This document shows, one piece after another, positions 37,761 through 63,396 of a stretch of DNA of 64,000 nucleotides. The DNA is taken from contig NZ_PIPR01000001.1 in NCBI RefSeq assembly GCF_003987355.1, positions 1,240,001 through 1,304,000 on the forward strand, in the 5' to 3' direction. Origin of the DNA: Pseudidiomarina aestuarii. GTDB taxonomy: Bacteria; Pseudomonadota; Gammaproteobacteria; Enterobacterales; Alteromonadaceae. Under the pieces are notes generated by a model. That model was not told the origin of the DNA and ran no database searches. It was given only the letters and a program-made list of their open reading frames with translations. Position 1 is the first letter of the stretch; every line of letters starts with the position of its first letter. Both the position numbers and the translations under genes were made by a program.

Positions 37761-37848
37761 TGTTGTTAGCTACTAGCGATTAGTTACTGGCTACTCGAAA
37801 ACAAAGATCTAGGCAGTTCTCATAGCTAGTAGCCATTAGCTAGTAACG
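37761..37848. repeat. Heptamer-armed inverted repeat, copy A
   Basis: Five left heptamers (TGTTGTT, AGCTACT, AGCGATT, AGTTACT, GGCTACT), a 25-bp centre at 37796-37820 with the AGATCT core, and four right heptamers (CATAGCT, AGTAGCC, ATTAGCT, AGTAACG) complementary in pattern to the left. It fills the gspH-gspG gap inside the secretion operon and ends 2 bp before the gspG stop codon. Confidence 0.9.
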
Positions 37849-37850
37849 CT

Positions 37851-38267
37851 CTAGTTTTCTAAGTTCCAGTTACCGATGTCGTCTTCGGTGCCTGCTTGAC
37901 CATCCGGACCCGCAGAGAAGATATCGATATCCCCATATTCGCCTGGATTCAGCATCATGTACTCTTCGCCGTATGGATCAGTCGGCAAACGTTGAATGTA
38001 ACCGCCGCGACGGTAGTTTCGTGGGGCTGGCTCATACTGTGGCTCTTCGATCAGCGCCTGCAACCCTTGCTCGGTAGTCGGATAGACGCCGTTATCGAGA
38101 CGGTATTGCGCCAACGCATTCTCTAGCGAGACAATATCGGTACGCGCTTTCTGCCGGTTGGCGGAATCACTCGCACCAATAACGTTAGGCACAATGAGTG
38201 CGGCTAACAATCCGAGTATGGCAATCACGACCATAATCTCGAGCAAACTAAATCCTTTCTGTTTCAT
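37851..38267 (-). CDS. gspG: Type II secretion major pseudopilin G
   Basis: This 138-residue protein has the prepilin leader MKQKGFSLLEIMVVIAILGL, the long N-terminal helix, RTDIVSLENALAQYRLDNGV, YPTTEQGLQALIEEP, LPTDPYGEEYMMLNPGEYGD and the calcium-site motif SAGPDGQAGTEDDIGNW, all hallmark GspG features. It forms the pseudopilus body. It is flanked on both sides by heptamer repeats (37761-37848 and 38285-38393), so its mRNA segment sits between two potential hairpins. Confidence 0.96.
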   Translation of the reverse strand: MKQKGFSLLEIMVVIAILGLLAALIVPNVIGASDSANRQKARTDIVSLENALAQYRLDNGVYPTTEQGLQALIEEPQYEPAPRNYRRGGYIQRLPTDPYGEEYMMLNPGEYGDIDIFSAGPDGQAGTEDDIGNWNLEN

Positions 38268-38284
38268 ATAACCCCCTTAAAAAT

Positions 38285-38393
38285 CGTTGTTCGTTGTTCG
38301 TTGTTCGTTGTTCGTAAATTGAAGCGAAGTATTCGATACTCTCAGCGCAAGTCTCGAACAACGAAAAGCGAAGCGTTCGAAAAACGAATAACG
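38285..38393. repeat. Heptamer-armed inverted repeat, copy B (variant type)
   Basis: Four perfect tandem CGTTGTT heptamers (38285-38312) and a right arm with AACAACG, AAAAGCG, AAAAACG and AATAACG, the complements of CGTTNTT-type heptamers. The 44-bp middle lacks the GATCT core and instead holds AGTAT-TCG-ATACT. It lies in the 135-bp gspG-gspF gap. Confidence 0.8.
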
Positions 38394-38402
38394 GTATTTG
38401 CT

Positions 38403-39650
38403 TTAGAGTCCCATGGCTTGGTTTAGTGCCAAGATGGGCTGAATAATCGCTAACACGATGAACAGGACAATCCCCGCCATAGTTACAATCAAGGCCGGTT
38501 CGAATATTTTCAGAGCCACATTCATCGTGTTTTCAAAGTCGCGATCTTGGTTGTCTGCGGCGCGGCCCAGCATTTGTTCTAGCTCACCACTTTTCTCACC
38601 CGCTGCAATCATATGCAGCATCATCGGCGGAAAGAGTTTGGTGTTCGCCAAAGCGTTACGCAATGACGAGCCTTCGCGCACGCGGTCGGACGCTTCTTCG
38701 ATGGCTTGTTGCATGGCGCGGTTGGTCAGTACCCGACCAGTAATTCTTAGGCCATCCAACAAAGGAACTGCCGACGCTGATAAGATACTCAGCGTACGAC
38801 TAAAGCGTGCCGTGTTCACTGCTTTGATAACGCGCCCGAATAAAGGTGTTTTCAGTACCCAAGCATCGTATTTATCGCGAAACGCAGGCTTTCTCAACGC
38901 TTGCGTGAATGCAATGCTGGCGATAATCAACGCCACCAAAATATAAGGTCCAAAAGTTTGTAGGAAACTACTGATAGCGAGCATCACCGTGGTGGTTGTG
39001 GGGAGAGTTTGATCCAGTGAGACAAACTGCTCAACGATGTTCGGTACCACCGACACCAATAAGAAAATCACGATGCAAATGGCGACGAATGTCAGCACCA
39101 TCGGATAAATCAGCGCTTGCGTCAGTTGGCTTTTCAAGCGATTCCGCTGTTCGGTGTAATCGGCAAGTCGATTCAAGACTTCGTCGAGGTGCCCTGAGCG
39201 CTCGCCCGCAGCCACCATTGATGTGAATAGCTTATCGAAGACATGTGGATATTCGCTCATCGCCTCGGCTAACGAATAGCCCTCGACGACTTTCGAGCGT
39301 ACTGCCATCAGTAAGTTGGTCAGTCGTGCCTTATCGGTCTGCTCCGCAACGGCCAATAACGCTTGCTCAATAGGTAACGCACCTTGCACAAGAGTTGCCA
39401 GTTGGCGAGTGATCAAAGCTAAATCAGCGGCTTTGATACGACGAATTCGCGCTCGCGCAAACCAACCCGCAACACCACCGGCAGTCGATTCACTCGTGGC
39501 TCGATTTTGTTGCTCAGCGACTTCAACCGATACTGGCAGCAAGCCCTGTTCACGCAAAAGTTGACGCACTTGGCGTTCGGTATCGCCTTCTAGAACACCA
39601 TTTTTTTTGCGCCCACTGGCATCCAGCGCTTGATACGCAAATGCACCCAT
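38403..39650 (-). CDS. gspF: Type II secretion inner-membrane protein F
   Basis: This 415-residue platform protein begins MGAFAYQALDASGRKKNGVL and EGDTERQVRQLLREQGLLPV, the standard GspF N-terminus, followed by two GspF helical domains (LALITRQLATLVQGALPIEQ at about 76, FSRTLSILSASAVPLLDGLR at about 278) and three membrane helices. MLHMIAAGEKSGELEQMLGR is a conserved segment. It contacts GspE and GspL at the base of the machine and lies 3 bp from gspE. Confidence 0.95.
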   Translation of the reverse strand: MGAFAYQALDASGRKKNGVLEGDTERQVRQLLREQGLLPVSVEVAEQQNRATSESTAGGVAGWFARARIRRIKAADLALITRQLATLVQGALPIEQALLAVAEQTDKARLTNLLMAVRSKVVEGYSLAEAMSEYPHVFDKLFTSMVAAGERSGHLDEVLNRLADYTEQRNRLKSQLTQALIYPMVLTFVAICIVIFLLVSVVPNIVEQFVSLDQTLPTTTTVMLAISSFLQTFGPYILVALIIASIAFTQALRKPAFRDKYDAWVLKTPLFGRVIKAVNTARFSRTLSILSASAVPLLDGLRITGRVLTNRAMQQAIEEASDRVREGSSLRNALANTKLFPPMMLHMIAAGEKSGELEQMLGRAADNQDRDFENTMNVALKIFEPALIVTMAGIVLFIVLAIIQPILALNQAMGL

Positions 39651-39653
39651 ACG

Positions 39654-41171
39654 TTATTCCTCACGCGTGACGCGCAAGACTTCCTCTAATGTGGTTAAAC
39701 CCAGTGCGACTTTGCTCAAACCGTCATCGCGAATACTCGGGGTATGCTTGCGCACGTACTTGTCGATGGCTTGCTCGCCATGACCGTTGTGGACCAGTTC
39801 ACGCACCTTCTCATCAACCACCAGTAATTCATGAATACCGGTCCGGCCGCGATAGCCGGTATGGTTGCACTTCTCGCAACCTTTGGCGCGATACAAGACC
39901 GCAGTTTTGCGCTCTTTCTTGCTGAAAAATTCGAGTTCGTCGTCACTGGGTTCATAGGTTTCTTTACACTCGTCGCACAGCGTACGCACGAGTCGTTGCG
40001 CTAGCACTGCAAGGAGCGAAGAGCTCAGCAGGAATGGTTCGACGCCCATGTCTTCCAGACGCGTAATCGCGCCAGCAGCGGTATTGGTGTGCAAAGTCGA
40101 CATCACGAGGTGACCGGTCAACGACGCTTGCACCGCAATTTGTGCGGTTTCGACATCACGGATCTCACCGACCATGACTACGTCGGGGTCTTGTCGCAAA
40201 ATAGCGCGCAAACCGCGGGCGAAGGTCATCTGGACTTTTGGATTGACCTGCATCTGCCCGATACCTTCAATGGCATACTCAATCGGGTCTTCAACGGTCA
40301 AAATGTTACGGTCTTTGGAATTGATATCGCTCAAGCCCGCGTACAAAGTGGTACTTTTACCAGAGCCCGTTGGGCCGGTAACCAAGATGATGCCGTGGGG
40401 CTTTTTGATGAGCTCTGCGAAAATTTTGCGGTTTGCCTCAGTCATGCCGAGCTGTGCCAAGTTCAAACGCGCGTTATTTTTATCGAGCAAACGCAATACT
40501 ACCCGTTCGCCATGATTCGATGGCATGGTCGATACCCGCACATCGACTGCACGACCGGCAATCAGCAAGCTAATACGACCATCCTGCGGCACCCGTTTCT
40601 CGGCGATATCTAACTGCGCCATTACTTTGATCCGCGACACTAGCAATGAACTGAGTTTGCGGTTGGGGCGAATGACTTCACGTAGCACGCCGTCGATACG
40701 GAAGCGCACTAATAAATCTTTTTCGAAGGTCTCTATATGAATATCTGACGCGCCTTCTTTAATCGCTTCCGACAACATGGCGTTGATCAATTTTATAATC
40801 GGCGCGTCATCTTCGCTTTCGAGCAAGTCTTCAGTTTGCGGAAGTTCGTCGGCCAACGAAAATAGGTTCGTCTCGTTACCGATGTCTTCCATCAACTGCT
40901 TAGCTTCCGAAGAATCGCGCTGATAGGCTTGCGTTAAAATCGCTTCAAAGGTGTCGTTGTCATGCTTTTGTACGCTGAACGATTGGCCGAGCACGCGGCG
41001 TACTTCAATTAATGCATCGCGATCAAAGTCGGCGCGAGTGTGAACAATATAGGTTGCCTCACCATCCGGCTCATTGCGATTTTCTTGTACCACCACACCG
41101 TGCCGTTTGGCGAATCCAAATGGCAAGCGTCGCGGCGCTATAACTGCTGCGACGTCAGCGATTTCACTCAT
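39654..41171 (-). CDS. gspE: Type II secretion ATPase E
   Basis: This 505-residue cytoplasmic ATPase has [13 protein letters not shown] near the start (the N1 GspL-binding region), Walker [16 protein letters not shown] (about 264), [20 protein letters not shown], Walker [21 protein letters not shown] and the zinc module CDEC...CEKC (about 398-435) with [12 protein letters not shown]. The start at 41171 overlaps the gspD stop (ATGAGTGA). It energises assembly of the canonical machine and is a distant paralogue of the ATPase at 25208-26887. Confidence 0.95.
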
Positions 41172-43269
41172 TGCCAGACCCTTCTTTCTGATCTTTGATG
41201 GCACCTTTCTCGCGCAGATATTCTTCATACCCTGGCGGTAATGCCAACGATGTATCAAACTCCGGCAGTAGAGGCCCTTTCGTGCGTGGCATAAGTTCAA
41301 TACCATCTTCTTGCGCTTTCAGTTGCTCGGCGCGAATAAAATTGTATTTACGACTACTCAGGCCAGTGGCGGTAGATGAGTCACGTATGATCGTAGGTTT
41401 TAAGAACACCATCAAATTACGCTTTTGGCGAGTAGTCGAGGTTGAGCTGAAAAGCTTGCCAAGAAACGGGATATCACCGAGTAGCGGAATCTTAGAGACA
41501 CTTTCCTGCACATCTTCATCGATGAGGCCACCGAGCACAATGGTGTCGCCGTCTTCGGCCATAACCACCGTTTTCAGTTCACGCTTGTTAATGGTGATAT
41601 CGACCGACGTTGCACCACTTAGACTCGATACTTCTTGCTCGATTACCATCTGCACCGCATTACCTTCATTGATTTGCGGCGTCACTTTCAACTTGATACC
41701 AATGTCTTCACGATTAACCGTTTGGAATGGGTTTTGGTTATCGCTACCAATCGTCGAGCCGGTGATAGTTGGAACCGACTGACCAACCAAGAATGAGGCT
41801 TCTTCATTATCCACGGTCATAATGCTTGGCGTGGCCAAAATATTGGAATTGGTGGTGGTGCTGACCGCTTGCAAAATAGCGCCCCAGTCATTTTTAATCA
41901 CCCCAATCATGGTGCCATTCACGTTGCCCAGTAACTGCGCCAGTAACTCGACATTACCTTGCTGTGCTGGCTCCTCGGTAACGAGTGGGTTGCCCGCATT
42001 ATCGACTTCACGCGTAACCCGACCCGGCTGTTCCCGCGCTAAGTACGCTGCTGCAGCCAACTGCCCAATCGGCACTTGATTGCCATTGTTGTATTGCACC
42101 AAACCCGCATCTTCCGAAATCCATTGCAAGCCAAAATCAACACCGTCACCTTCGAATATCTCAACAATGATGGCTTCGACATGAACTTGGGCGCGACGGA
42201 TGTCGAGTTGACGGATCACGTTTTCAAGATTCATCAACATATCGGGTTGCGCGGTAATCACCAGCGAGTTACTCGCCTCGTGCGCGGTGATACTAATATT
42301 GTTATTCGAACGACTACGGCGCTGCGGTGCACCCTGTGGCTGCCCCTGCCCGCCTTGCTGCTGTTCTGCAACCAAAGAATCTGACACACCCTGCAGTACA
42401 TCGACCAATTCTTCGGCTTTGGCATACTTCAAGTACACCACCCGCGTATTGCCTTCGGTTTGTAGATCTTTATCGAGCTGCTCAATCAATTTCACCACGC
42501 GCTCACGGGCTTGCGGCTCGCCGCTGACTACCACCGAGTTGGTGCGCTCATCGGCGACAATTTTCGGGATTAATAATGCTGGCGTACCATCCGCGGTTTT
42601 CTCAAACAGCGCAGAGGCGATGCGAACGACCTCTGATGCGGACGCGTACTGCAACTTCACGACGCGAACGTCTTGATTACCAGCGCGGTCAACACGCTCA
42701 ATAATTTCCACCAAACGTTGCACGGTCTCACTGCGGCCGGTCAACATAATCACGTTCGACGGGTCATACGAAACCACGTTGCCGCCGCCACTGGCGTCAT
42801 TCAGCAAGCGCAGTAACGGGGCTAATTCACGCACAGAAACATTTAGAACAGGAACAACGCGGGTGACTAAGGTATCACCACCAAGCGAGTTGTCATCGAC
42901 TACGGGGATGGCGCCATTGCGCGCATCTTTGTCACGCATAACTTTTATGACACCGGACTCCATTTGCACGGTGGCAAAACCGTAGACATCCAACACGTTC
43001 AAGAAAAACTGCCAATATTGATCTTCCGTCATCACGTCATAACTGCGCACATCAATTTTACCGCGCACATCAGGATCGATAATCATGGTTTTACCCAAGT
43101 TACGTCCCACTACCTGAATGAATTCAGTGATGTCCGTGTTCTTAAAGCTCGCGGCGTATTCGACCGGCTCTTCGGCTGCGCTGCGTTGTGCTTGGGCGTA
43201 GCTCACAGCTGAGCTAGCTGCAGCGGCGAGGCTCAATGCCAGCGCGATGGAGAGTGTGGAGTGACGCAT
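41164..43269 (-). CDS. gspD: Type II secretion secretin D
   Basis: This 701-residue outer-membrane secretin has a normal signal peptide ([20 protein letters not shown], then YAQAQR) and no lipobox. The N0 domain ([20 protein letters not shown]), N1-N3 repeats ([60 protein letters not shown]) and the secretin core at about 425-620 ([64 protein letters not shown]) are all present. Start 43269 has an AAAGGA site; the longer frame lacks one. The C-terminal 70 residues (S-domain region) may need a pilotin, not seen in the window. Confidence 0.96.
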
Positions 43270-43297
43270 GCGTATTCCTTTCATTCTGATTCTGCTT

Positions 43298-44191
43298 TTA
43301 TTGTTCTGTTGGCACACTGAGTTCAAGATCAATGTACTCGTTATTTCGTAATACCGTTACCGTTACCTGCTGCATGTTGCCCAATTCACTGGTCATGCGC
43401 ATGGCGGTGCTGGCATCGGTCAGGTTCTCACCATTAATGGCGACTGCGATGTCACCCGCTTGGAAACCTGCCTCATTAAAGAGTTCCGGTTGCGGCCCTG
43501 GATTGAGTCGAAAACCCGAAATGCCACCGGCCTCTTGTACCGGACTAAACCGAATATAATTCAAAATACCAGCACTACCTGCCTGGCGTACCTGCTGCAC
43601 TTGATCGCGACTGAGCTGCGTTGCGGCACGGCGATTAATCGGTGGACGGCTTTGCTCTGCTGTGCTTGCAGCGGCGCGTTCACGACTATTTTCCATAGTC
43701 AGCGATAACCCCTCACTCAGTTCGCCAATACCTTCGAGCTCTAAGGTTTCAAGACGCCCGTTGTTATCCAAAATAACGCGGTCGGCATAGATCTCATGCA
43801 CGGTCACTTGAGTGCCGGTGAGTTTCTCGCCCACTGCAAACACTTCTTGTGTACCGCGTTGCTCAATAATGGCTGCAGAACGCTCAGGTGTCGAGGCTGC
43901 GGATACACCCATTAAGCGCACATTCAACTGCGTTTTCGGCGCGTTGGTGGACGCCTGTTGAACCGTAGCAGCGCTACCAAATAAGTTGAGCCGGTTGATG
44001 CCGGCAACATCCACGCGAGCACGCGACTGCACTTGCGCTGGCGGCAACGGCCCGGCTTCAGGTGCAGCTGGGGGAGTCAAAAATTGCCAGGTTAGTTGGG
44101 CAACAAACAGTGCGGCGGCAATCGCGCAAATTGCGGTAAGCGTCCATAGTCCGCGAGCCCACCACACTGGGTTATCAAGTAGCTTCTGCAT
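43298..44191 (-). CDS. gspC: Type II secretion inner-membrane protein C
   Basis: This 297-residue protein has one membrane helix (LWTLTAICAIAAALFVAQLT, about 16-35), the homology-region domain (LNLFGSAA and LNVRLMGVSAASTPERSAAI, about 65-165) that binds the secretin N0 domain, and a C-terminal PDZ domain (GGISGFRLNPGPQPELFNEA, AGFQAGDIAVAINGENLTD; about 215-295) used in substrate selection. It is the first gene of the operon. The 136-bp divergent region to hslO should hold its promoter, but no clear consensus stands out. Confidence 0.94.
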   Translation of the reverse strand: MQKLLDNPVWWARGLWTLTAICAIAAALFVAQLTWQFLTPPAAPEAGPLPPAQVQSRARVDVAGINRLNLFGSAATVQQASTNAPKTQLNVRLMGVSAASTPERSAAIIEQRGTQEVFAVGEKLTGTQVTVHEIYADRVILDNNGRLETLELEGIGELSEGLSLTMENSRERAAASTAEQSRPPINRRAATQLSRDQVQQVRQAGSAGILNYIRFSPVQEAGGISGFRLNPGPQPELFNEAGFQAGDIAVAINGENLTDASTAMRMTSELGNMQQVTVTVLRNNEYIDLELSVPTEQ

Positions 44192-44327
44192 TTTCGTTAT
44201 AATTTTGTGACGTCGCTTTAAGAAAATTCATTCTAGCGACTCAAATTGCCGCTGAACAGATAAAATTTGAAGAATTTGGTATCATAACCACCTTCTTTTA
44301 CACAATCATGACTTCGAGACGTATTCC

Positions 44328-45565: not shown

Positions 45566-45587
45566 CTTTCAGATTTGCAGGCTCAGA

Positions 45588-47096: not shown

Positions 47097-47101
47097 AGCT
47101 T

Positions 47102-48897: not shown

Positions 48898-48908
48898 GGG
48901 TAATACCT

Positions 48909-49045
48909 CGTTACTGGCTACTAGCTACTGGCTATTGGCTACTAGCTATTGGTTAATCGTTAATCGTTAATCGTTAATCGTTATTCGTTATTGGTTTTTC
49001 GTTATTCGTTTTTGCTAATAGCTAATATCTAGTAGCTATCAGCGT
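48909..49045. repeat. Heptamer-armed repeat, copy C (long hybrid array)
   Basis: Fifteen consecutive 7-bp units run without a phase break from 48909 to 49013: first GGCTACT-type (CGTTACT, GGCTACT, AGCTACT, GGCTATT, GGCTACT, AGCTATT), then GGTTAAT and three CGTTAAT, then CGTTATT/CGTTTTT-type units. A short right arm (AATAGCT, AATATCT, AGTAGCT, ATCAGCG) follows. The 25-bp GATCT centre is absent. It fills the yfgM-hisS gap. Confidence 0.9.
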
Positions 49046-49053
49046 TGTTTATC

Positions 49054-50325: not shown

Positions 50326-50393
50326 GACGTTGTTACTTTCTCGTCAGTTGTTCACAGTTGGGATCAATTTTAGGCGGGTAGTATACCGCAGGT

Positions 50394-51506: not shown

Positions 51507-51525
51507 ACTCTACTACTATTGTGAA

Positions 51526-52602: not shown

Positions 52603-52615
52603 AAAGTGGGTGCCA

Positions 52616-53386: not shown

Positions 53387-53453
53387 GCCAAGCCCTCGGT
53401 AAAAAAACTATGTTAACCCAAGCGCCGCGCAGGCGAAAGGGCACAACAACGCT

Positions 53454-54587
53454 TTACACGGCTTTGACAGAAATTTCGTTACCGCCGCGCTGCGCTTGCT
53501 GCTTTTTCAGGATCCGCTTGGTCCGGTCAATGACATCGCCCACAAGTTGCCCGCAGGCCGCGTCGATATCATCACCACGAGTTTTCCGAACCATGACGGT
53601 ATAACCGTGTTCTAGCAGAACTTTGGCAAAGCGGTCAATGCGTGAATTACTGGACCGACCGTAATCGGAACCGGGAAAAGGATTAAATGGAATGAGGTTA
53701 ATCTTCGCTGGGGTACCTTTCAGCACTTCCGCGAGTTCGTGAGCCAGCTCGGTCGAATCGTTCACATGATCCAACATCACATACTCAACCGTCACCGCTT
53801 TGTTGGCTTTTGAACCGTCAATATAACGACGGCTAGCAGCCAAGAATTCGGCAATGGGATACTTCTTGTTAATGGGCACAATTTCATCACGCAACGCGTT
53901 GTTCGGCGCATGCAATGAAATAGCCAATGCCACATCAATCTGTTCTTTGAGTTTATCGAGCGCCGGTACGACACCTGAAGTACTCAAGGTGACGCGACGC
54001 TTCGACAGACCAAAACCCCAATCATCTAACATCAACTCCATAGCTGGCACGACGTTGTTGAGATTGAGGAGCGGCTCGCCCATGCCCATCATGACCACAT
54101 TGGTCACGGCTTTGACATTGGTCTCGCCAAAGGCACCGAGCAACTTGCTCACGCGCCACACCTGACCAATGATTTCAGCGGTCCGGAGGTTGCGGTTAAA
54201 GCCTTGTTGTCCGGTGGAACAGAACGTGCACTCCAGTGCGCAACCTACCTGCGAGCTTACACACAACGTCGCTCGGTCAGTTTCAGGAATCCAGACGGTC
54301 TCGACATCCTGGCCATCGAACAAGGTCATGACGAACTTGATGGTGCCATCAGTCGATTGCTGTTGCGTCCGCACCTCAGGTGCACGAATTTCTGCAATTT
54401 GCTTCAGTTTTTCACGCAGCGCTTTGTTCAGATTGGTCATCTGATCAAAGTCATCGACACAAAAGTGATAAATCCACTTCATAACCTGATCGGCACGGAA
54501 AGGCTTCTCACCGAGTTCCTGAAAAAACTCACGTAAGCCGGCACGATTCAAATCGAGCAAATTCACTTTCTTATCAACAGCGTTCAT
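53454..54587 (-). CDS. rlmN: 23S rRNA/tRNA adenine-C2 methyltransferase (radical SAM)
   Basis: RlmN methylates A2503 of 23S rRNA and A37 of some tRNAs. The 377-residue protein has an N-terminal helical domain ([20 protein letters not shown]), the radical-SAM motif CX3CX2C in [20 protein letters not shown] (about 115-134), the SAM-binding [16 protein letters not shown], and the C-terminal cysteine in [10 protein letters not shown] (about 346) that forms the methyl-carrier pair with a loop cysteine. Upstream of pilW, downstream of ndk, as in relatives. Confidence 0.97.
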
Positions 54588-54610
54588 AAAAACCTTTTAA
54601 AAACCAAAAA

Positions 54611-54691
54611 CGTTATTTGCTATTTGCTACTGGCTACTAGAAAACACAGATCTAGGCTCTTCTAATAGCTAGTAGCTAGTAACTAATAGCT
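54611..54691. repeat. Heptamer-armed inverted repeat, copy D (archetype)
   Basis: The cleanest copy: four left heptamers (CGTTATT, TGCTATT, TGCTACT, GGCTACT), a 25-bp centre (54639-54663, AGAAAACAC-AGATCT then AGGCTCTTCT) and four right heptamers (AATAGCT, AGTAGCT, AGTAACT, AATAGCT). Total 28+25+28 bp. It fills the rlmN-ndk gap and ends 4 bp before the ndk stop. Confidence 0.95.
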
Positions 54692-54695
54692 TTGA

Positions 54696-55127
54696 TTAGC
54701 GGGTGCGCGAGCAGAGTTCTTCTTCAGTGAAGAAGTATGCAATTTCGCGAGCTGCAGATTCTACTGCGTCTGAGCCATGTACCGCGTTTTCATCGATAGA
54801 TACAGCATAGTCTGCGCGCAGAGTTCCTGCCAACGCGTCAGCTGGGTTAGTTGCGCCCATGATGTCACGATGACGACGCACAGCGTTGTCTGCTTCCAGA
54901 ACTTGTACCATGATTGGACCTGAAGTCATGAAATCAACCAATGCGCGGAAGAATGGACGCTCTTTGTGTTCTGCGTAGAAGCCTTCTGCTTGCTCGGTGC
55001 TCAAATGCATCATTTTTGCAGCAACGATGCGGAAGCCAGCTGTTTCAAAACGGTTGTAGATAGCGCCGATTACATTTTTGCCAACAGCATCTGGTTTGAT
55101 AATTGATAAAGTACGTTCTAAAGCCAT
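54696..55127 (-). CDS. ndk: Nucleoside diphosphate kinase
   Basis: This 143-residue enzyme balances NTP pools via a phosphohistidine. It begins [20 protein letters not shown] and has [34 protein letters not shown] and the active-site segment [20 protein letters not shown] with the catalytic His at about 117. The ATG at 55127 has a GGAGAAT site; an ATG at 55160 would add 11 residues. Codons look adapted, as for an abundant enzyme. Confidence 0.97.
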
Positions 55128-55238
55128 GAGATTCTCCGATAAGGATGTCAAATTTTTCAAATAGAAAATTGAGGTTAAAACAAGTCGCGCGGATTATACG
55201 TGAGTGCGGCTCGAGTTGAAAGCTCGAACCACGAACAG

Positions 55239-55312
55239 CGCTACTGGTTATTGGCTACTCGTTACTCGAACGGTGCCGATCTGTGTTTACGAATATCTAG
55301 TAACCAATAGCT
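55239..55312. repeat. Heptamer-armed inverted repeat, copy E
   Basis: Left arm CGCTACT, GGTTATT, GGCTACT, CGTTACT; a 25-bp centre (55267-55291) in the opposite orientation to copy D (GATCTGTGTTTACG half); right arm AATATCT, AGTAACC, AATAGCT. It lies in the 251-bp divergent region between ndk and msrA, which otherwise holds their promoters. Confidence 0.88.
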
Positions 55313-55378
55313 ATTGGCGCTGTTGTGGGTTTTGCGTTAGACTCGATGGCAATCTAGACGTCTATATATGAGGTGGTT

Positions 55379-55912
55379 ATGACGCAACAAATTACTTTAG
55401 GTGGTGGTTGTTTTTGGTGTATTGAAGGCGCTTTTAAGCAAGTGCGCGGGGTTTTGAAAGCGCAGTCTGGTTATGCGGGTGGTCAGCAAGCCGACCCAAC
55501 CTATGAGCAAGTGTGTACCGGTCAAACGGGGCACGCGGAAGTGGTGCAAATTACCTTCGATCCGCAAGCATTAACGGTACGTGAAATACTCGAAATTTTC
55601 TTTGCGCTGCATGACCCAACGCAGGTGAACCGTCAAGGCAATGATGTGGGGACACAGTATCGGACGTCGATTTTTTATCAGACTGATGAGCAGAAACAAT
55701 TGGCTGAGGAAATTATTGCAGAAATGGAGCGCGAGCAAACATGGGACGCGCCTATTGTAACGACGGTTGAGCCGCTTGAGAAATTTTGGCCCGCTGAGGA
55801 GTACCATGACAACTATGTCGAGCGTAATCCTCAGAACGCCTATTGCCAAGCGGTCGTGCATCCAAAACTGGCAAAGTTCAAGCGCACTTTCGTTGACAAA
55901 CTGGACGGCTAA
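55379..55912 (+). CDS. msrA: Peptide methionine sulfoxide reductase A
   Basis: MsrA reduces the S-epimer of methionine sulfoxide in proteins. The 177-residue protein begins MTQQITLGGGCFWCIEGAFK with the catalytic cysteine in GCFW (about residue 11), followed by SGYAGGQQADPTYEQVCTG, GHAEVVQITFDP, FALHDPTQVNRQGNDVGTQY and YHDNYVERNPQNAYCQAVV. ATG 55379 has a GAGG site 5 bases upstream; an in-frame GTG at 55373 is the alternative. It is encoded alone, between two minus-strand operons. Confidence 0.95.
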   Translation: MTQQITLGGGCFWCIEGAFKQVRGVLKAQSGYAGGQQADPTYEQVCTGQTGHAEVVQITFDPQALTVREILEIFFALHDPTQVNRQGNDVGTQYRTSIFYQTDEQKQLAEEIIAEMEREQTWDAPIVTTVEPLEKFWPAEEYHDNYVERNPQNAYCQAVVHPKLAKFKRTFVDKLDG

Positions 55913-55928
55913 GACAGCCGTCCTATTT
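55903..55928 (+). terminator. Terminator-like hairpin overlapping the msrA stop
   Basis: The perfect stem GGACGGCT/AGCCGTCC with a 5-base loop (55903-55923) includes the msrA stop codon, and is followed by TATTTGATT, a weak T tract. Termination is likely but not certain. Confidence 0.55.
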
Positions 55929-55941
55929 GATTGAAGTGCAG

Positions 55942-56280
55942 TTAGTGGTTTTCTTTAACCATATTGACGGTGTATTTGGGGATCTCAATCACGAGATCCT
56001 CACCACTTACTTTAGCCTGACAACTCAGGCGTGAATCCGGATCTAACCCCCAAGCTTTGTCCAGCATGTCATCTTCATTGTCATTAATTTCAGGTAATGA
56101 ATCCATGCCCTCTCGGACATAGACGTGACACGTGGTACACGCACACACTTTCTCACATGCATGCTCGATACCGATGCCATTACGCAAGGCCACATCAAGC
56201 ACGGTCTCGCCGTCGTTGGCATCGATTGCTGCACCCTCGGGGCAGAGCTCTTCATGGGGCAGAAACACTATCTTGGGCAT
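55942..56280 (-). CDS. fdx: ISC-type 2Fe-2S ferredoxin
   Basis: This 112-residue adrenodoxin-like ferredoxin supplies electrons for Fe-S cluster assembly. Ligand cysteines are in GIEHACEKVCACTTCHVYVR (C-x5-C-x2-C, about 42-51) and in LSCQAKV (about 88). The N-terminal MPKIVFLPHEELCPEGAAI is family-typical. It is the last isc gene here; iscX, which often follows, is not present before msrA on the other strand. A heptamer repeat separates it from hscA. Confidence 0.95.
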   Translation of the reverse strand: MPKIVFLPHEELCPEGAAIDANDGETVLDVALRNGIGIEHACEKVCACTTCHVYVREGMDSLPEINDNEDDMLDKAWGLDPDSRLSCQAKVSGEDLVIEIPKYTVNMVKENH

Positions 56281-56303
56281 AAGTACCTCACTTCCTTAAA
56301 ATA

Positions 56304-56391
56304 CGCTACTGGCTATTAGCTACTGGCTACTGGCTACTGGCTATTAGAAAACATAGATCTGAGCTCTTCTAGTAGCTAGTAACTAGTAGCC
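56304..56391. repeat. Heptamer-armed inverted repeat, copy F
   Basis: Six left heptamers (CGCTACT, GGCTATT, AGCTACT, GGCTACT, GGCTACT, GGCTATT), a 25-bp centre (56346-56370, AGAAAACAT-AGATCT then GAGCTCTTCT) and right AGTAGCT, AGTAACT, AGTAGCC. It sits between hscA and fdx inside the isc operon. Confidence 0.93.
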
Positions 56392-56409
56392 ACTCGCTCT
56401 TCACGCTTT

Positions 56410-58281
56410 TCACATGTCGTCGACTCGGGTGCCGGTAAGGGCTTTCCGGATCGATGCATCCATCCGTCGTGCTGCAAAGGCATCACTGGCGCGATCGACG
56501 GCGTCAATGGCCTTTTCAATCGCTTTGACGTCGGTGCCTTTGCGAGCTTGATCTAAATCTTGCATGCGCGCGTCTAAAAGTTCGCGTTCATCGACATCAA
56601 GTAAATCACCATCTGCGGCTAAAGCACTGCTGAGTGCCTCAAGAACGCGATCGGCCTCGACTTGTTGCTCACGCAGCATGCGCGCTTGCATATCCTGCTT
56701 GGCATTGGTCATTGATGCTTTAATCATCTCGCCAATATCGTCGTCCGCCAAGCCATAAGATGGCTTCACTTGGATTGACGCGCTAACACCACTGGATTTC
56801 TCCATGGCGGTGACACTCAACAGACCATCCGCATCCACTTGGAACGTGACGCGGATATGTGCTGCGCCAGCGGCCATTGGTGGGATATCCGTCAACACAA
56901 AACGTGCCAGCGACCGACAGTCATCCACCAACTCACGCTCGCCTTGGACCACGTGAATCATCATCGCTGTTTGGCCATCTTTGAACGTGGTAAATTCTTG
57001 TGCTTTGGCAACCGGAATCGTGGTATTTCGATCGATGACTTTTTCTACCAAACCACCCATGGTCTCTAGTCCCAGGGACAATGGAATGACGTCGAGCAAC
57101 AACATATCAGAATCTGGCTTATTACCGGCTAATATGTCGGCTTGAATGGCAGCGCCAATCGCAACCACCTCATCCGGATCAATCGACGTCAGTGGTTCGC
57201 GACCAAAATAAGCACCGACATCGGTACGCACTTTCGGCACCCGCGTCGAGCCACCAACCATCACCACTTCCAAAATTTCATCGGCGCTGACTTCAGCGTC
57301 TTTCAGCGCACGCCGACAGTTTTGTAGGGTTTTCTGAACCAGCGGCTCAATCCAACCGTCAAATTGCTCACGAGTGATAGTTAATTCGTAATGTTGCCCG
57401 GCAATTTCGACCTGCAGCAAGGTCTCATCAGCATCGGTGAGCGCTTCCTTGGCGGCTTTAGCCGCATTGATAAGCGTGCGCTCAGTCCGAGCGTCGACGT
57501 TGGCATCAAGTTGCCAAGCTTGCTTCAATTGCTGCACGATGAGTTGGTCAAAGTCGTCGCCACCCAGCGCGCTATCACCACCGGTTGCCAGCACTTCAAA
57601 TACACCGCCAGTTAACCGGAGAATCGAAATATCAAAGGTTCCACCACCGAGGTCATAGACCGCAATTAAGCCTTCTTGCCCGGTATCGAGACCATAAGCG
57701 ACAGCAGCAGCGGTAGGCTCATTGAGTAGCCGTAACACGTTGACTCCGGCCAATTGAGCCGCGTCTTTCGTGCTTTGCCGCTGTGCATCGTCAAAGTACG
57801 CCGGCACGGTAATTACCACGCCAGTGAGCTCGCCGCCGAGCGCTGCTTGAGCGCGCGCACTCAACGTCCGCAGAATGTCTGCTGACACTTCGACCGCGGT
57901 TTTCGCACCCGCTGAGGTATGAAATACCGGAACACCATTCTCGGTTTCACTGAGATGATAGGGGAGGTTTTGGAAATTCTTTTGTACATCAGCCACTGTG
58001 CGGCCAATGAAACGTTTGACAGAAACAATGGTATCTTCGCTGGCAATCGAAGCGTCTGCGTGCAATGCCAATGCGTCATAGCCAGTGAGTATGCGCTCAC
58101 TACCGTAATGCACAACCGATGGCAGGATACCGCGCTCCTGATCGTCACGCAGCACGGTTGCCTTACCACTGCGCACCGTCGCAACCAACGAATTGGTCGT
58201 ACCGAGATCAATACCCACGGCTAGGCGGTGTTGATGGGGGGCGGTGCTCTGTCCGGGTTCAGCTATCTGGAGTAAGGCCAT
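56410..58281 (-). CDS. hscA: Fe-S protein maturation chaperone HscA
   Basis: This 623-residue Hsp70 homologue helps move the nascent cluster from IscU to target proteins, with HscB as co-chaperone. The ATPase domain opens with [20 protein letters not shown] (about 22-41) and has [59 protein letters not shown] and [10 protein letters not shown]. The substrate domain starts after [20 protein letters not shown]. Heptamer repeats flank the gene on both sides (58298-58399 and 56304-56391), unusual within an isc operon. Confidence 0.97.
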
Positions 58282-58297
58282 ACTACCTCTTTGAGTT

Positions 58298-58399
58298 CGC
58301 TAATGGCGACTGGCTATTGGCTACTAGTTACTAGCTAATAGAAAACACAGATCTACGCTTTTCTAGTAACCAGTAACTAGTAGCTAATAGCTAGTAACA
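58298..58399. repeat. Heptamer-armed inverted repeat, copy G
   Basis: Six left heptamers (CGCTAAT, GGCGACT, GGCTATT, GGCTACT, AGTTACT, AGCTAAT), a 25-bp centre (58340-58364, AGAAAACAC-AGATCT then ACGCTTTTCT) and five right heptamers (AGTAACC, AGTAACT, AGTAGCT, AATAGCT, AGTAACA). It lies between hscB and hscA and ends 3 bp before the hscB stop. Confidence 0.95.
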
Positions 58400-58402
58400 T
58401 TC

Positions 58403-58894
58403 TTAAAAGTCTTTGGCATCGAGTTCGTAGTCGAGCTTGTGCATAAACTTCAGCTTTCGTACGACGTTCGCTGCCGCGTCATTATCTTCGCTTTCGAGTA
58501 AGGATTCGAGTTCAGTCTGCAGCTGCTTGATTTCATCGTCGAGCTCAGATTGAGCGCTGAGCACGTCTGTTGCCGAATTCAAGTCTTCGAGTCGTTCACG
58601 CCATTCCATTTGCGCCATCAAGAACTCAGGATCTTGCAGCGTCTGTTGTTCATGCTGCAAGTCAATACCGCGCAACTCAAGCATGTATTCAGCTCGAGAC
58701 AGCGGGCGGCGGAGAGTTTGATAGGCATCGTTGAGCTGCGAAGTGCGTTGTACCGCGAGTAATTTATCGCGTTGACTCGCATTGGCAAACCGATCAGGAT
58801 GCAGCGTTTGCTGCAGCTTTCGGTAGCGCTGTTGTAACTCCGCCGCATCGATAGCAAATGCGGCGGGTAGACCGAACAATTCAAAATGATTCAT
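58403..58894 (-). CDS. hscB: Fe-S cluster co-chaperone HscB
   Basis: This 163-residue J-protein delivers IscU to HscA and stimulates its ATPase. It starts MNHFELFGLPAAFAIDAAEL and has the J-domain HPD motif in QTLHPDRFANASQRDK (about 33-48). The C-terminal three-helix domain (EFLMAQMEWRERLEDLNSAT onward) binds IscU. The ATG at 58894 is preferred over an in-frame TTG at 58906. It lies 20 bp after iscA. Confidence 0.95.
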   Translation of the reverse strand: MNHFELFGLPAAFAIDAAELQQRYRKLQQTLHPDRFANASQRDKLLAVQRTSQLNDAYQTLRRPLSRAEYMLELRGIDLQHEQQTLQDPEFLMAQMEWRERLEDLNSATDVLSAQSELDDEIKQLQTELESLLESEDNDAAANVVRKLKFMHKLDYELDAKDF

Positions 58895-58914
58895 ACGCTT
58901 AAACAATCACCGTC

Positions 58915-59238
58915 TTAGACGTTAAAGCTCTCACCACAACCGCATTCGCCTTTGGCGTTTGGATTGTTAAATTCGAACCCTTCGTTCAAGCCTTCTTTCA
59001 CGAAATCCAATTCGGTTCCGTCAAGGTAGACTAGGCTTTTGCCATCAATGATGATTTTCACACCTTTGTCCTCGAAAACCGAGTCGGTGTCATCTACTGA
59101 ATCGACAAATTCCATGACATAGGCTAAGCCGGAGCAGCCTGTCGTTTTCACGCCAAGACGAATTCCAACGCCTTTGCCGCGAGATTCAAGGAACGCCCGC
59201 GCACGTTGCGCGGCCGCTTCAGTCATCGTGATGCCCAT
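58915..59238 (-). CDS. iscA: Fe-S cluster assembly protein IscA
   Basis: This 107-residue A-type carrier has the three conserved cysteines: one in [16 protein letters not shown] (about 35) and two in [11 protein letters not shown] (about 99-101). Its [20 protein letters not shown] start is typical. It carries or delivers 4Fe-4S clusters or iron. It lies 3 bp downstream of iscU in the isc operon. Confidence 0.97.
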
Positions 59239-59241
59239 CGC

Positions 59242-59625
59242 TTACCCTGCGTGTTTTTTCTTGTAATCCTCAATAGCCGCTTTGATTGCATCTTCGGCTA
59301 GAATCGAGCAGTGGATCTTCACTGGTGGCAACGCCAGCTCTTCCGCGATTTGCGTATTTTTGAGCTGAGCGGCTTCTTCCAGTGATTTGCCTTTTACCCA
59401 CTCAGTTACGAGTGAACTAGAGGCAATAGCTGAACCACACCCATAGGTCTTGAACTTGGCATCTTCAATAATGCCTTGGTCATTGACCTTGATTTGCAAC
59501 TTCATGACGTCACCACAAGCGGGTGCTCCAACCATACCGGTTGCGATACTTGGATCATTTTTGTCGAAACCGCCAACGTTGCGCGGATTTTCATAATGGT
59601 CGATAACTTTTTGACTGTAAGCCAT
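59242..59625 (-). CDS. iscU: Fe-S cluster scaffold protein IscU
   Basis: This 127-residue scaffold starts MAYSQKVIDHYENPRNVGGF and has the three cluster cysteines in GAPACGDVMKLQIKV (about 37), YGCGSAIASSSLVTEW (about 63) and KIHCSILAEDA (about 106), plus the LPPVK motif recognised by HscA. It accepts sulfur from IscS, encoded 27 bp upstream. Confidence 0.98.
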   Translation of the reverse strand: MAYSQKVIDHYENPRNVGGFDKNDPSIATGMVGAPACGDVMKLQIKVNDQGIIEDAKFKTYGCGSAIASSSLVTEWVKGKSLEEAAQLKNTQIAEELALPPVKIHCSILAEDAIKAAIEDYKKKHAG

Positions 59626-59652
59626 AATTTCTACCTCTCTTGGTGGCTGCTC

Positions 59653-60867
59653 TTAGTGAGCAACCCATTCGACGCTGTTCAAGTCCACACCATCTTTGTA
59701 CATTTCCCAAAGTGGTGACATGTCGCGCAGGCGACCGATTGATTTCTGAATCTGTTCAATCGCGTGATCCACTTCCTCTTCAGTCGTGAAGCGACCGAAA
59801 CTAAAGCGAATTGAGCTATGTGCTAACTCGTCGTTACGCCCTAACGCGCGGAGCACGTAGGATGGCTCTAAGCTTGCGGAGGTACAGGCTGAACCTGATG
59901 ATACCGCTAAGTCTTTCAATGCCATGATCAGCGACTCACCTTCGACAAAGTTAAAGCTGATGTTGAAGATGTGCGGTACGCCATGCTCTTGGTTACCGTT
60001 GATATAGACTTCTTCAATGTCTTTCACACCGTTCCAAAGACGCTCACGCAATGCACGGAAACGCTCGCCTTCAGCAGCCATTTCTTCTTTGGCAATACGA
60101 GCTGCTTCACCGAAGCCTACGATTTGATGCGTTGGTAACGTACCTGAACGCATACCACGCTCATGGCCACCACCGTGCATCTGCGCATTCAAACGCACCC
60201 GTGGCTTACGGCGTACATACAATGCACCGATACCTTTCGGACCGTACATTTTGTGCGCTGAGAAGCTCATCAAATCGACCGGCAGTTGCTCTAAATCGAT
60301 AGCGACTTTGCCGGCGCTTTGCGCAGCGTCGACATGGAAAATAGTTTTGTTAGCACGACACAAATTACCGATAGTCTCGATATCTTGAATCACGCCGATC
60401 TCATTGTTCACGTGCATCACGCTTACCACTACAGTGTCTTCACGCAGTGCTGCTTTGAAAGCATCAATATCAATCAAACCGTCTTCTTGCACGTCAAGGT
60501 ATGTGACTTCAAAACCTTCACGCTCTAACTGGCGGCAGGTATCCAATACGGCTTTGTGCTCAGTTTTCACCGTGATGATGTGCTTGCCTTTTTTCTGGTA
60601 AAACTCTGCAGCACCCTTGATACCCAAGTTGTCAGATTCAGTCGCGCCTGACGTGAACACGATTTCGCGTGGATCTGCATTGATGAGCTCAGCAATTTGG
60701 CTACGTGCAATGTCAATGGCTTCTTCAGCTTGCCAGCCAAAGCGGTGTGAGCGCGACGCTGGATTACCAAACTGACCATCTGGCGTTAAGAACTGCATCA
60801 TCTTTTCGGCAACACGCGGATCAACCGGTGTGGTTGCTGCGTAGTCAAAATAAATTGGTAATTTCAT
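59653..60867 (-). CDS. iscS: Cysteine desulfurase IscS
   Basis: This 404-residue PLP enzyme takes sulfur from cysteine for Fe-S clusters and thiolated tRNAs. It starts [20 protein letters not shown] and has [41 protein letters not shown], the PLP-lysine segment [20 protein letters not shown] (Lys about 206) and the mobile catalytic cysteine in [20 protein letters not shown] (about 328). The ATG at 60867 is 5 bp after the iscR stop; residues before it do not match the family. Confidence 0.98.
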
Positions 60868-60872
60868 TGGTA

Positions 60873-61364
60873 CTACCCCATCTGGCAATTGAGAGCGATT
60901 TGCTGCTCGCGTTTCTTTTGCTCGGCTGCCTGCAGGTTTTGACGCTGGGCAACTTGTGCGATGTCTTGCTTGGTGACAAGCTCTGCCAGCGTAATGCCGG
61001 CTAGGAAATCTTCGATTCGGTCACTCAGACCTTCCCACAATGAGTGGGTCAAGCAACGGCTACCACCCTGGCACCCGCCTTTACCTTGGCAACGTGTGGC
61101 ATCGATAGACTCATCGACAGCCTGAATCACTGCGCTGATTGAGATAGCATGCGCCTCTAACCCGAGACGATAACCACCGCCTGGACCGCGCACACTACTC
61201 ACCAGCCCTTGCTTACGCAAGCGAGCGAATAATTGTTCAAGATAACTCAGCGAAATACCCTGCCGTTCTGAGATATCGGCGAGCGGAACTGGGCCATCTT
61301 GGGTATGGAGCGCAACGTCGAGCATTGCAGTCACGGCGTAGCGTCCTTTCGAGGTTAATCGCAT
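60873..61364 (-). CDS. iscR: Fe-S cluster-binding transcriptional regulator IscR
   Basis: This 163-residue Rrf2-family regulator senses Fe-S status; with its 2Fe-2S cluster it represses its own operon. It begins [20 protein letters not shown] (winged helix), with [20 protein letters not shown] as recognition region, and cluster ligands in [17 protein letters not shown] (C-x5-C-x5-C-x2-H, about 92-107). The ATG at 61364 has an AGGAG site. It heads iscRSUA-hscBA-fdx, and a matching operator lies just upstream. Confidence 0.97.
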
Positions 61365-61391
61365 AGTGCGTTCTCCTAAAAATCTACGCAA

Positions 61392-61420
61392 ATTGTGACA
61401 TTCCCGACTGTTTTAGTCAA
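61392..61420 (-). promoter_or_regulatory. isc operon promoter
   Basis: On the minus strand TTGACT (61415-61420) and CACAAT (61392-61397) are spaced by 17 bp, placing the transcript start about 20 bp before the iscR ribosome site. The -35 box lies inside the IscR site. Confidence 0.75.
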
Positions 61421-61424
61421 GTAT
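61400..61424 (-). promoter_or_regulatory. IscR type 1 binding site
   Basis: The 25-bp segment reads on the minus strand ATACTTGACT-AAAA-CAGTCGGGAAT and matches the known type 1 consensus (ATASYYGACT, spacer, YAGTCRRSTAT) at nearly every position. It overlaps the -35 box, so holo-IscR binding should block transcription of the isc operon. Confidence 0.85.
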
Positions 61425-61442
61425 TATCAGAGGACGAGTAAG

Positions 61443-61620
61443 CGTTACTAGCTACTGGCTATTGGCTACTAGCAAGAGCGAAATGCTAAAACCAGAGAGC
61501 TACTGGCTACTGGCTACTGGCTACTGGCTACTGGCTACTGGCTACTGGCTACTAGAAAAGCTTAGATCTGTGTTTTCGAGTAACTAGTAACTAGTAACTA
61601 GTAACTAGTAACTATTAGCT
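61443..61620. repeat. Heptamer-armed inverted repeat, copy H (largest)
   Basis: A first block of four heptamers (CGTTACT, AGCTACT, GGCTATT, GGCTACT; 61443-61470), a 27-bp unrelated stretch, then AGCTACT plus seven perfect GGCTACT units (61498-61553), the 25-bp centre (61554-61578), five perfect AGTAACT units and ATTAGCT (61579-61620). The last heptamer contains the trmJ stop codon. It lies between iscR and trmJ. Confidence 0.95.
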
Positions 61621-62343
61621 TTTACCGCTTTTCACTCTTTTGTCGATTGAAGTCAGGATTCCTCGGAGGATATTGAGCTCCGCGACTTCCGGACGAGCGC
61701 GGGCGAACATGCGGCGCAGTTTCGCCATCACTTGGCCTGGGTGTTGTTTGATGATGAAGCCGGTGTCGAGCAATGTGCTTTCGAGATGCGTATAAAAGCG
61801 CTCAAGATCTTCTGCAAGCGGGTACTCGGTGGTTTCTGGTTTGGGTTGCTGTTCGGCTTCGAGATATTGCATGCGAATTTCGTAAGCCAAAGTTTGCACG
61901 GCCATGGCTAGATTCAGCGAGCTGTACTCGGGATTCGATGGAATGTGCACATGATGCGTACATTGCTGTAGCTCTTCGTTAGTCAGGCCGCTGCTTTCTC
62001 GACCAAACACCAACGCAACTGGGTACTGCGATACTTCTCTGAGGGTTTGCGCGGCTGCTTCACGTGGCCCAATCAACGGCCAGTCCAGGGTGCGGTTGCG
62101 TGCGCTCGTACCTATGACTAAGCCACAGTCGGCAATGGCTTCTGCCAAACTGCCGACAATGTTGGCGCGGTGTAAAACGTCGGTAGCACCGGCAGCCAAT
62201 GCTGACGCATGACTGTCCGGAGCCTGCACAGGATCAACCAAGGTCAGTTGCGACAGTCCCATGGTTTTCATGGCACGAGCAACCGAACCAATATTTCCGG
62301 TATGCGACGTATTCACCAATACGATACGAATGGAATCGAGCAT
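61615..62343 (-). CDS. trmJ: tRNA (cytidine/uridine-2'-O)-methyltransferase TrmJ
   Basis: TrmJ makes Cm32/Um32 in several tRNAs. The 242-residue SPOUT enzyme starts [38 protein letters not shown], and has the knot-forming segments [15 protein letters not shown] and [20 protein letters not shown], with [20 protein letters not shown] completing the SAM site. A helical C-terminal extension of about 70 residues is present as in E. coli. The last codons (AAA AGC TAA) run into a heptamer repeat. It lies upstream of iscR, its common neighbour. Confidence 0.96.
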
Positions 62344-62367
62344 GTCCGCGCCTCTCCTCTTGTCGCC

Positions 62368-63168
62368 TTACTTCATAGCTTTCGGTAAATGCGCACGCGC
62401 CTTACCGAGAATGCCTTGCACCACCTTGGGGTTGCCAGCAACGACGTTGCCGCTCGTCATGTAATCATGGCCGCCACCGAAGTCGGTAATCAAGCCACCC
62501 GCTTCACGCACCATGAGGGCGCCGGCAGCGATATCCCAACGTTCGAGTGAGAATTCCCAGAAGCCATCCATACGACCCGCAGCAACATAGGCTAAATCTA
62601 GTGCAGCGGAGCCATTACGGCGCATATCGGCAGCATCTTCAAACAATGCAGCGAATACATTCTGATAGGTTTCGAGTAAGTCTTTGCGCTTGAATGGGAA
62701 GCCTGTGGCGAGCAAAGCACCTTGCAGATCACGACGTGCTTTGACACGCAAACGTTTGCCATTCAATTGAACGCCAGCACCTTTGGTTGCGGTGAACAGC
62801 TCTTCACGTAACGGGTCATAAATCACCGCTACTTGGGTAACACCTTTGAATTGATAGGCAATGGAAATGGCAAAATGCGGGATACCGCGCAGGTAATTGG
62901 TCGTGCCATCCAGAGGATCAATAATCCACTGATGGTCAGCATCTTTACCGCCCGTCTCACCGCTTTCTTCAGCGAGAAACGTGTGGTCAGGAAACACTTT
63001 TTGAATCGAGCGAATAATCGCGCTTTCGGCTGCCTGGTCAATCTCGGAGACAAAATCGTTCTGCGATTTTGCTTGAACATTAATGTCGGCTTCGACACCA
63101 AAATTCTTCACTAAGATTTTTCCGGCCGCACGCGCAGCGCGCACCGCTATGTTTAACATCGGATGCAT
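62368..63168 (-). CDS. suhB: Inositol-1-monophosphatase family protein SuhB
   Basis: This 266-residue Mg-dependent phosphatase also acts in E. coli as a factor for rRNA antitermination with Nus proteins. It begins MHPMLNIAVRAARAAGKILV and has the metal-site motifs EESG (about 67), WIIDPLDGTTNYLRGIPHFA and ERWDIAAGALMVREAGGL. The start at 63168 gives the E. coli-like N-terminus. It lies next to trmJ, separated by 24 bp. Confidence 0.95.
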   Translation of the reverse strand: MHPMLNIAVRAARAAGKILVKNFGVEADINVQAKSQNDFVSEIDQAAESAIIRSIQKVFPDHTFLAEESGETGGKDADHQWIIDPLDGTTNYLRGIPHFAISIAYQFKGVTQVAVIYDPLREELFTATKGAGVQLNGKRLRVKARRDLQGALLATGFPFKRKDLLETYQNVFAALFEDAADMRRNGSAALDLAYVAAGRMDGFWEFSLERWDIAAGALMVREAGGLITDFGGGHDYMTSGNVVAGNPKVVQGILGKARAHLPKAMK

Positions 63169-63241
63169 ACCAAAGTACCTGTGCTGTAAAAGAACGAATT
63201 CGGGCGCGCATGATACTGCAAAACCTCTCAAATGCCAAGAG

Positions 63242-63322
63242 CGTTACTAGCTATTGGTTACTGGCTTCTAGAAGAGCCTAGATCTGTGTTTTCGAGTAGC
63301 TAGTAACCAATAGCGAATATCG
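63242..63322. repeat. Heptamer-armed inverted repeat, copy I
   Basis: Four left heptamers (CGTTACT, AGCTATT, GGTTACT, GGCTTCT), a 25-bp centre (63270-63294, AGAAGAGCCT-AGATCT then GTGTTTTCG) in reverse orientation to copy D, and right AGTAGCT, AGTAACC, AATAGCG, AATATCG. Same 81-bp size as copy D. It lies in the divergent region between suhB and the small gene. Confidence 0.93.
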
Positions 63323-63396
63323 TTCTTGCTTTTGTTTTTTTACCGTGTTATCTATTTGTTGCGCTAAAAACAACGATAACAGCCAAGGAGGATCCG

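Follow-up and report, generated by a model that had tools for sequence, protein, structure and literature searches.

Intergenic palindromes with arms of tandem heptamers in Pseudidiomarina aestuarii and related species

Heptad palindromes in the 64-kb window

The window analysed here, a stretch of 64,000 nucleotides from Pseudidiomarina aestuarii (contig NZ_PIPR01000001.1, positions 1,240,001 to 1,304,000), carries a series of inverted repeats next to genes that include type II secretion system (T2SS) pseudopilin-type genes, ndk, fdx and hscA (Table 1). The repeats, which we call heptad palindromes, are built from 7-bp units, mostly RGYTAYT, opposed by complementary arrays. A preliminary description made from the letters of the window had proposed such an intergenic family, and our analysis confirmed it: seven window elements have a common centre, two lack it, and the family is dispersed across the genome. 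It probably consists of short, non-coding, non-autonomous palindromic repeats that resemble REP (repetitive extragenic palindromic) sequences or MITEs (miniature inverted-repeat transposable elements) in their behaviour and were found here in one genus only. What surprised us most was that unrelated palindromes are exchanged at fixed gene-end slots in close relatives.

The double heptamer GGCTACTGGCTACT, searched with up to three mismatches, occurs 51 times in the window compared to 3.05 expected copies and a maximum of 10 in 100 shuffles. Facing heptamer arms enclose a centre of exactly 25 bp in all window palindromes (7/7), and this centre is found in both orientations, as originally described; the two further elements (48909-49044 and 61443-61470) are heptad arrays lacking it. 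The arms had also been said to be rich in CTAG, a tetramer usually rare in such genomes. This held true, since the whole window contains 103 copies versus 250 expected from base composition, with 31 of them inside the 808 bp of elements and 72 elsewhere. Within the element at 61498..61613, the two arms are unlike each other (GGCTACT x7 versus AGTAACT x5), and the automated count of its right arm was seven, the last two units reaching into the next gene. The related array at 38284..38392 resembles a second palindrome type of the sister species, here termed C-type, which has the form CGTTATTCG ... GCTTCGCTGTTCG. The names fdx, hscA, hscB, iscR, trmJ and suhB are labels put on Pfam domain hits.

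Table 1. Heptad elements and a related array in the window (units are heptamers; 4+25+4 denotes four left units, a 25-bp centre and four right units)
Position	Strand	Element	Centre	Gene context and remarks
37761..37848	+	heptad palindrome, 5+25+4	37796-37820	between T2SS pseudopilin-type genes
38284..38392	.	7-bp array of a related type: TCGTTGT x4.6 opposite CGAACAACG/CGAATAACG-type units (by eye)		
48909..49044	.	long array of 15 forward heptamers (GGCTACT to CGTTAAT type) versus 4 facing reverse units	no 25-bp centre	flanked by genes for a tetratricopeptide repeat (TPR) protein and histidyl-tRNA synthetase
54611..54691	+	heptad palindrome, 4+25+4	54639-54663	rlmN/ndk gap
55239..55319	-	heptad palindrome, 4+25+4, diverged	55267-55291, reversed	adjoins ndk
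56304..56398	+	heptad palindrome, 6+25+4	56346-56370	fdx/hscA gap
58298..58399	+	heptad palindrome, 6+25+5	58340-58364	hscA/hscB gap; top model score, 91.7 bits
61443..61470	+	left arm, 4 units, then spacer	no 25-bp centre	upstream of iscR-like gene
61498..61613	-	heptad palindrome, 8+25+5 (clean right units)	61554-61578, reversed	
63242..63322	-	heptad palindrome, 4+25+4	63270-63294, reversed	adjoins inositol-monophosphatase gene (suhB)

Two further features of the window were recorded. Upstream of the iscR-like gene, a ATTCCCGACTnTTTTAGTCAAGTATT-like block (61392-61440) is conserved across the genus in the same gap of the relatives and is probably an operator or promoter of that gene. Near the T2SS genes, tandem repeats of 15 bp and 6 bp (CGGTGG) lie within predicted reading frames (31148-31280).

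Copies, plan and gene context across the genome and genus

Across the 2.64-Mb genome carrying the window (G000), a four-unit heptad pattern gave 347 and 280 overlapping matches on the two strands versus 4 in the reversed control, and the exact pattern of the centre occurs six times. A covariance model built from 18 oriented elements yielded at least 155 strand-wise matches (E<=0.1), and the matches listed were merged by hand into at least 79 places. The latter figure is a lower bound, because it derives from the matches listed and because scoring covered 150 of the 1142 first-look candidates. Inspected by eye, G000 copies share similar centres within unrelated flanks.

The strict centre length seen in the window did not extend to the whole genome: among 64 places scoring at least 50 bits, the centre measures 25 bp in 40, 24 bp in 8, 26 bp in 5 and another length in 11. 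Arms, described as holding 4 to 15 units, range from 3 to 20 units genome-wide, with four by far the commonest number (exactly four in 79/126 arms; 4+4 units in 28/63 elements). Since four units are commonest and the centre is mostly 25 bp, the basic copy looks like 28+25+28 = 81 bp, that is four heptamers, the centre and four heptamers. Its outermost units start with CG in 79/128 arms, and outward of these ends a CTTTT-like, T-rich flank follows on both sides (T frequency 0.53-0.68 at flank positions 2-5). One gap contains two copies of a composite double element whose flanks show no homology recognisable by eye, which speaks for the copying of a bounded unit. As a separate observation, three contigs start with near-identical heptad palindromes that have a 14-bp centre (L105, 314-383; L106, 147-216; L107, 147-216) and sit behind what looks like a common terminator; these contig starts are possibly the ends of ribosomal RNA operons.

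None of the 79 places has its midpoint inside a called gene. They fall into 35 co-directional, 30 convergent and 9 divergent gaps, with 5 more at the ends of regions or contigs. For comparison, these regions, selected for containing elements, have 106 co-directional, 33 convergent and 68 divergent gaps of at least 80 bp. Within co-directional gaps, the upstream stop is closer than the following start for 22 of 31 elements (p 0.025); the same number, 22/31, overlap the stop or end at most 11 bp from it. Relative to transcription, the centre has the same orientation in 13 cases and the opposite one in 22. Genes were called with a simple codon-usage caller, for which stops are firm and starts are not; some divergent calls may be errors.

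The units themselves are highly regular. Among 384 inner units of G000, G occupies position 2 in 99.2% and T position 7 in 97.1%, and positions 4 and 5 are T and A in 95.1% each; the variable positions are 1, 3 and 6, where transitions predominate. Each of the eight RGYTAYT forms is present, GGTTATT just four times. The fixed positions could reflect recognition of the unit or could stem from scrambled old unit variants. Two possible reasons for the heptamer, namely arrays of stop codons (TAR in the right-arm units) or repeats of the Hfq type (ARN), were rejected, as both break with the sister-species units AATATCT or ACTAACG.

Turning to the genus, the covariance model at E<=0.01 found matches in 18 of 26 genomes, G000 included, with up to 150 candidates scored per genome. 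Counts of the four-unit pattern in 33 genomes of other genera were low and near the reversed control. In sister species, the 4+25+4 plan is built from different units, such as CGATATT AGCTATT GGATATT AGATATT, as found by a search that itself required the xGxTAxT skeleton. A motif-blind search for inverted repeats returned 44 repeats in 22 regions, with a best period of 7 or 14 in 23 of them and a lag-7 identity of at least 0.69 in 20 of these 23. By eye, the remaining 21 comprise 12 GTAG REP pairs and 9 palindromes of the GGTGCAGACC type. Several sister species also contain a third palindrome type, almost loopless, with arms like GGGTGCAGACCC...GGTCTGCACCC (L070, L073, L089, L090, L091).

Orthologous gaps in related species

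Comparing the gaps that flank hscA in 22 genomes, we found heptad palindromes, C-type palindromes, REPs, half arms or almost nothing. At the hscA-hscB site, the centre as judged by eye is oriented in G022 and G024 opposite to G010 and G011, and the fdx-hscA gap measures just 11-33 bp in 9 of 22 more distant relatives. Some of the gaps that hold heptad palindromes in G000 are occupied in relatives by pairs of GTAG-type REPs and by tandem arrays of REPs, and some REPs lie within the arms of another palindrome (L076, L078, L079, L088-L091). The hscA gene shows a peculiarity of its own: HscA of G022 and G011 (L088, L089) has an in-frame insert with a repeated peptide near residues 285-300, for which G010 and G019 gave split matches only and which looks like an intragenic repeat within one clade.

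The exchange of palindromes was examined in a trio of close relatives (G011, G017 and G019), which are 92-94% identical over hscA, iscS and suhB and of which 237-258 kb each were compared. Starting from 20 heptad elements, 40 comparisons gave the same element in 9 cases, a non-homologous palindrome in 27, a palindrome-free allele by script in 4 and a short or empty site in none; these comparisons are non-independent because one slot may be counted from several species. The 27 replacements comprise 16 C-type palindromes, 8 REPs and 3 unrelated heptad palindromes, and the four script-negative alleles are 78-208 bp long and not empty. Starting instead from C-type elements, 6/6 comparisons gave different palindromes, and starting from REPs, 26 comparisons yielded the same element in 10 cases, a different palindrome in 6, none in 2 and a short or empty site in 1; the other 7 did not map. 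REP copies were also seen by eye nested inside heptad or C-type palindromes.

An earlier gap matrix has noisy class labels (equal-length gaps of ~570 bp were, for example, scored C versus H) and was superseded by the stricter comparison above. In this matrix, palindrome-free gaps stayed palindrome-free in 83/93, 81/92 and 90/92 cases, and a palindrome in one species predicted one in the other even with same-class pairs removed (p 1.5e-9, 3.2e-10 and 1.2e-9).

Six retained orthologous copies allowed us to compare the elements letter by letter. Three differ by steps of 7 or 14 bp and one shows no change in arm length. Substitutions are not focused on heptad positions 1, 3 and 6 (12/146 vs 11/196, p 0.39, with low power), position 7 being the one most often changed (8/49), and arms do not differ significantly from centre plus flanks (23/342 vs 43/445, p 0.15). 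Unit recognition is therefore unproven, as substitutions are unfocused and the arms not significantly slower.

Interpretation and known repeat families

A non-autonomous mobile element, one of the roles suggested in the preliminary description, is the best fit to these data, with the qualification that sites in close relatives are swapped and not empty. The family would spread by copying into gene-end intergenic slots, or by replacing their contents; arm length would change by replication slippage, and the centre could flip via exchange between the two arms. Purifying selection may keep copies out of genes and promoters, and the transcribed hairpin may be tolerated or mildly useful as a 3' end structure of the messenger RNA (mRNA). 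The nested REPs suggest a route for the swaps, in which a REP would insert in the centre and the old arms would then be lost.

Several results weigh against this account. The empty sites expected of a classic mobile element appeared in none of the 40 comparisons among close relatives. No target-site duplication was demonstrated, the outer flanks being T-rich in inverted orientation and close relatives offering no empty site for comparison. Nor did a mobilising enzyme appear among the three transposase families searched: G000 has no match to Y1_Tnp (PF01797) and none to rve or DDE_Tnp_1. In G000 copies, heptad positions 2, 4, 5 and 7 are closer to invariant than plain neutral decay would predict. 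With regard to slippage, adjacent units resemble each other no more than shuffled ones do across the three inner units of each arm (z 0.6 in both arms), so that signs of local homogenisation are limited to particular long arrays, and two of the six retained pairs differ by other lengths (24 bp; 22 and 11 bp).

Three rival explanations were weighed. If gene ends need a strong bidirectional stem for termination, pausing or shielding of the upstream mRNA against exonucleases, any palindrome family would suffice, and the heptad palindrome would be the version proper to this genus, for which REPs or C-type elements could substitute. The location behind stops and in convergent gaps, the T-rich outer flank on both sides and the swapping of occupants while a palindrome mostly stays in close relatives agree with such functional 3' hairpins. 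So do the predicted RNA folds of six window elements, which range from -24.7 to -45.0 kcal/mol (z -2.5 to -6.9); in 200 shuffles each, none was as stable for five of the six and four were as stable for the remaining one. Despite these strong predicted folds, the plain mRNA hairpin proposed in the preliminary description gains no support in covariation, which a stem kept base by base should show at variable positions, or in strand bias: arms pair by Watson-Crick rules at 971/1344 positions compared to 991.7 in shuffled arms (sd 10.9, z -1.9), and mismatches on the transcript strand show no excess of G.U (66) over A.C (59, p 0.59). A terminator scan of 54000-64000 found 10 candidates versus 10.4 expected in shuffles, with one match (55305-55325) touching an element. 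Half-elements without a partner arm and the short gaps of other species, both seen by eye, also speak against a required stem, as do several window copies between apparently co-transcribed genes, for example hscB-hscA-fdx. We regard functional hairpins as an unlikely explanation of the family.

The heptamer xGxTAxT might alternatively be a single site for a modular or oligomerising DNA- or RNA-binding protein, with facing arrays serving as a looping or nucleoid site. Positions fixed at 95-99% beside others that vary mostly within purine or pyrimidine classes would suit such arrays, and so would the recurrence of the skeleton with other letters in sister species, although that search required it; the independent variation of the arms is expected if units are read singly. 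However, the orthologous substitutions, despite their low power, are not concentrated at the variable positions and fall most often on position 7, and scrambled old unit variants could yield what is seen in G000. Divergent gaps are also under-represented, no candidate protein emerged, and among the candidates scored the model had no match in 8 of 26 genus genomes. We judge binding arrays improbable. Still far less credible is a drive by Y1 transposases (REP-associated tyrosine transposases, RAYTs), of which the palindromes would be REP or REPIN elements of unusual shape. Intergenic palindromes are what this would produce, sister species possess GTAG-type REPs and Y1_Tnp genes, and 19 of 26 genus genomes have at least one Y1_Tnp match. 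Nevertheless, Y1_Tnp is absent from G000 and equally from G022, G023 and G024 despite at least 82, 102 and 48 strand-wise model matches in the latter three, and the plan of a terminal GTAG plus a short-stem REP is missing. The suggested link to a RAYT was accordingly not borne out in G000.

Beside the non-autonomous repeat that we favour, we entertain, at low probability, the idea that gene-end slots are kept occupied by interchangeable palindromes (heptad, C-type or REP) with no empty intermediate, the heptad arm being an iterated xGxTAxT recognition site for a swapping factor. Either a strong palindrome would then be selected at the site, or replacement would be targeted to existing hairpins. 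Small palindromic repeats are common in bacteria, and how they spread and whether they benefit the host is unsettled. Two long-standing questions arise: what mobilises short palindromes in genomes without a Y1 match, and must a gene end carry a hairpin, whatever its sequence? Because the arms can be counted in heptamers, the centre can be oriented, three transposase families gave no match and sites are swapped, the heptad palindromes make both questions directly testable.

The preliminary description knew of no named family with this architecture. The centre proved to be common to the G000 copies, and searches of Rfam, phages, plasmids, viral contigs and the literature matched no described family. 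At gathering thresholds, Rfam gave no match in the window; sub-threshold matches (E<1, 54500-63500) were microRNA precursors far below their cut-offs and were dismissed as reflecting hairpin shape only. Carriage by viruses, phages or plasmids was likewise rejected, as the element had no match in those collections. A widespread occurrence of the centre as a motif was also discarded: it had three matches in a collection of genome contigs from which near kin are possibly absent, and these matches, all without heptamer arms, were taken as chance. No description of such a palindrome family was found in the literature, whose coverage was partial, so that absence from print is not shown; the exact string was matched solely by a paper on coffee microsatellites.

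Cyanobacterial STRR repeats are heptameric, being 7-bp intergenic tandem units like the heptad arms; to our knowledge, they form no palindrome and have no common centre. A closer likeness exists to REP, BIME and REPIN sequences, which are dispersed, intergenic, palindromic, high in copy number and non-autonomous (PMC3116915, PMC3686654, PMC3733652). GTAG REPs also often touch stop codons (PMC3733652), and a related turnover is described for REP classes, which change next to orthologous RAYT genes (PMC3686654). Unlike these repeats, the heptad palindromes have no terminal GTAG or GGAG beside a palindrome of 20-40 nt and, in G000, no Y1 (RAYT) transposase match; they have CG ends, arms mostly of at least 28 bp made of four or more 7-bp units, and a near-fixed centre. 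As tested, they are not members of the REP family.

With MITEs, the heptad palindromes share facing terminal arms, dispersed places and midpoints in gaps between called genes. Bacterial MITE-like repeats such as ERIC/RU are likewise short, gene-free, intergenic inverted repeats. Unlike them, the heptad palindromes have arms of tandem heptamers that vary in number, and neither a target duplication nor, among the transposase families searched, a parent insertion sequence was found. In their units, they come closest to the TAACTGA heptamers of Beggiatoaceae, also gammaproteobacteria, which form intergenic direct repeats with 2-6 copies and a single inverted case and in most instances shortly precede a start codon (PMC4679880). 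Rotated to GATAACT, this heptamer differs by one base from the right-arm type ARTARCY. Instead of direct repeats ahead of starts, however, the heptad palindromes are arrays that face each other around a centre and mostly lie behind stop codons, nearer to the upstream stop in 22 of the 31 co-directional cases.

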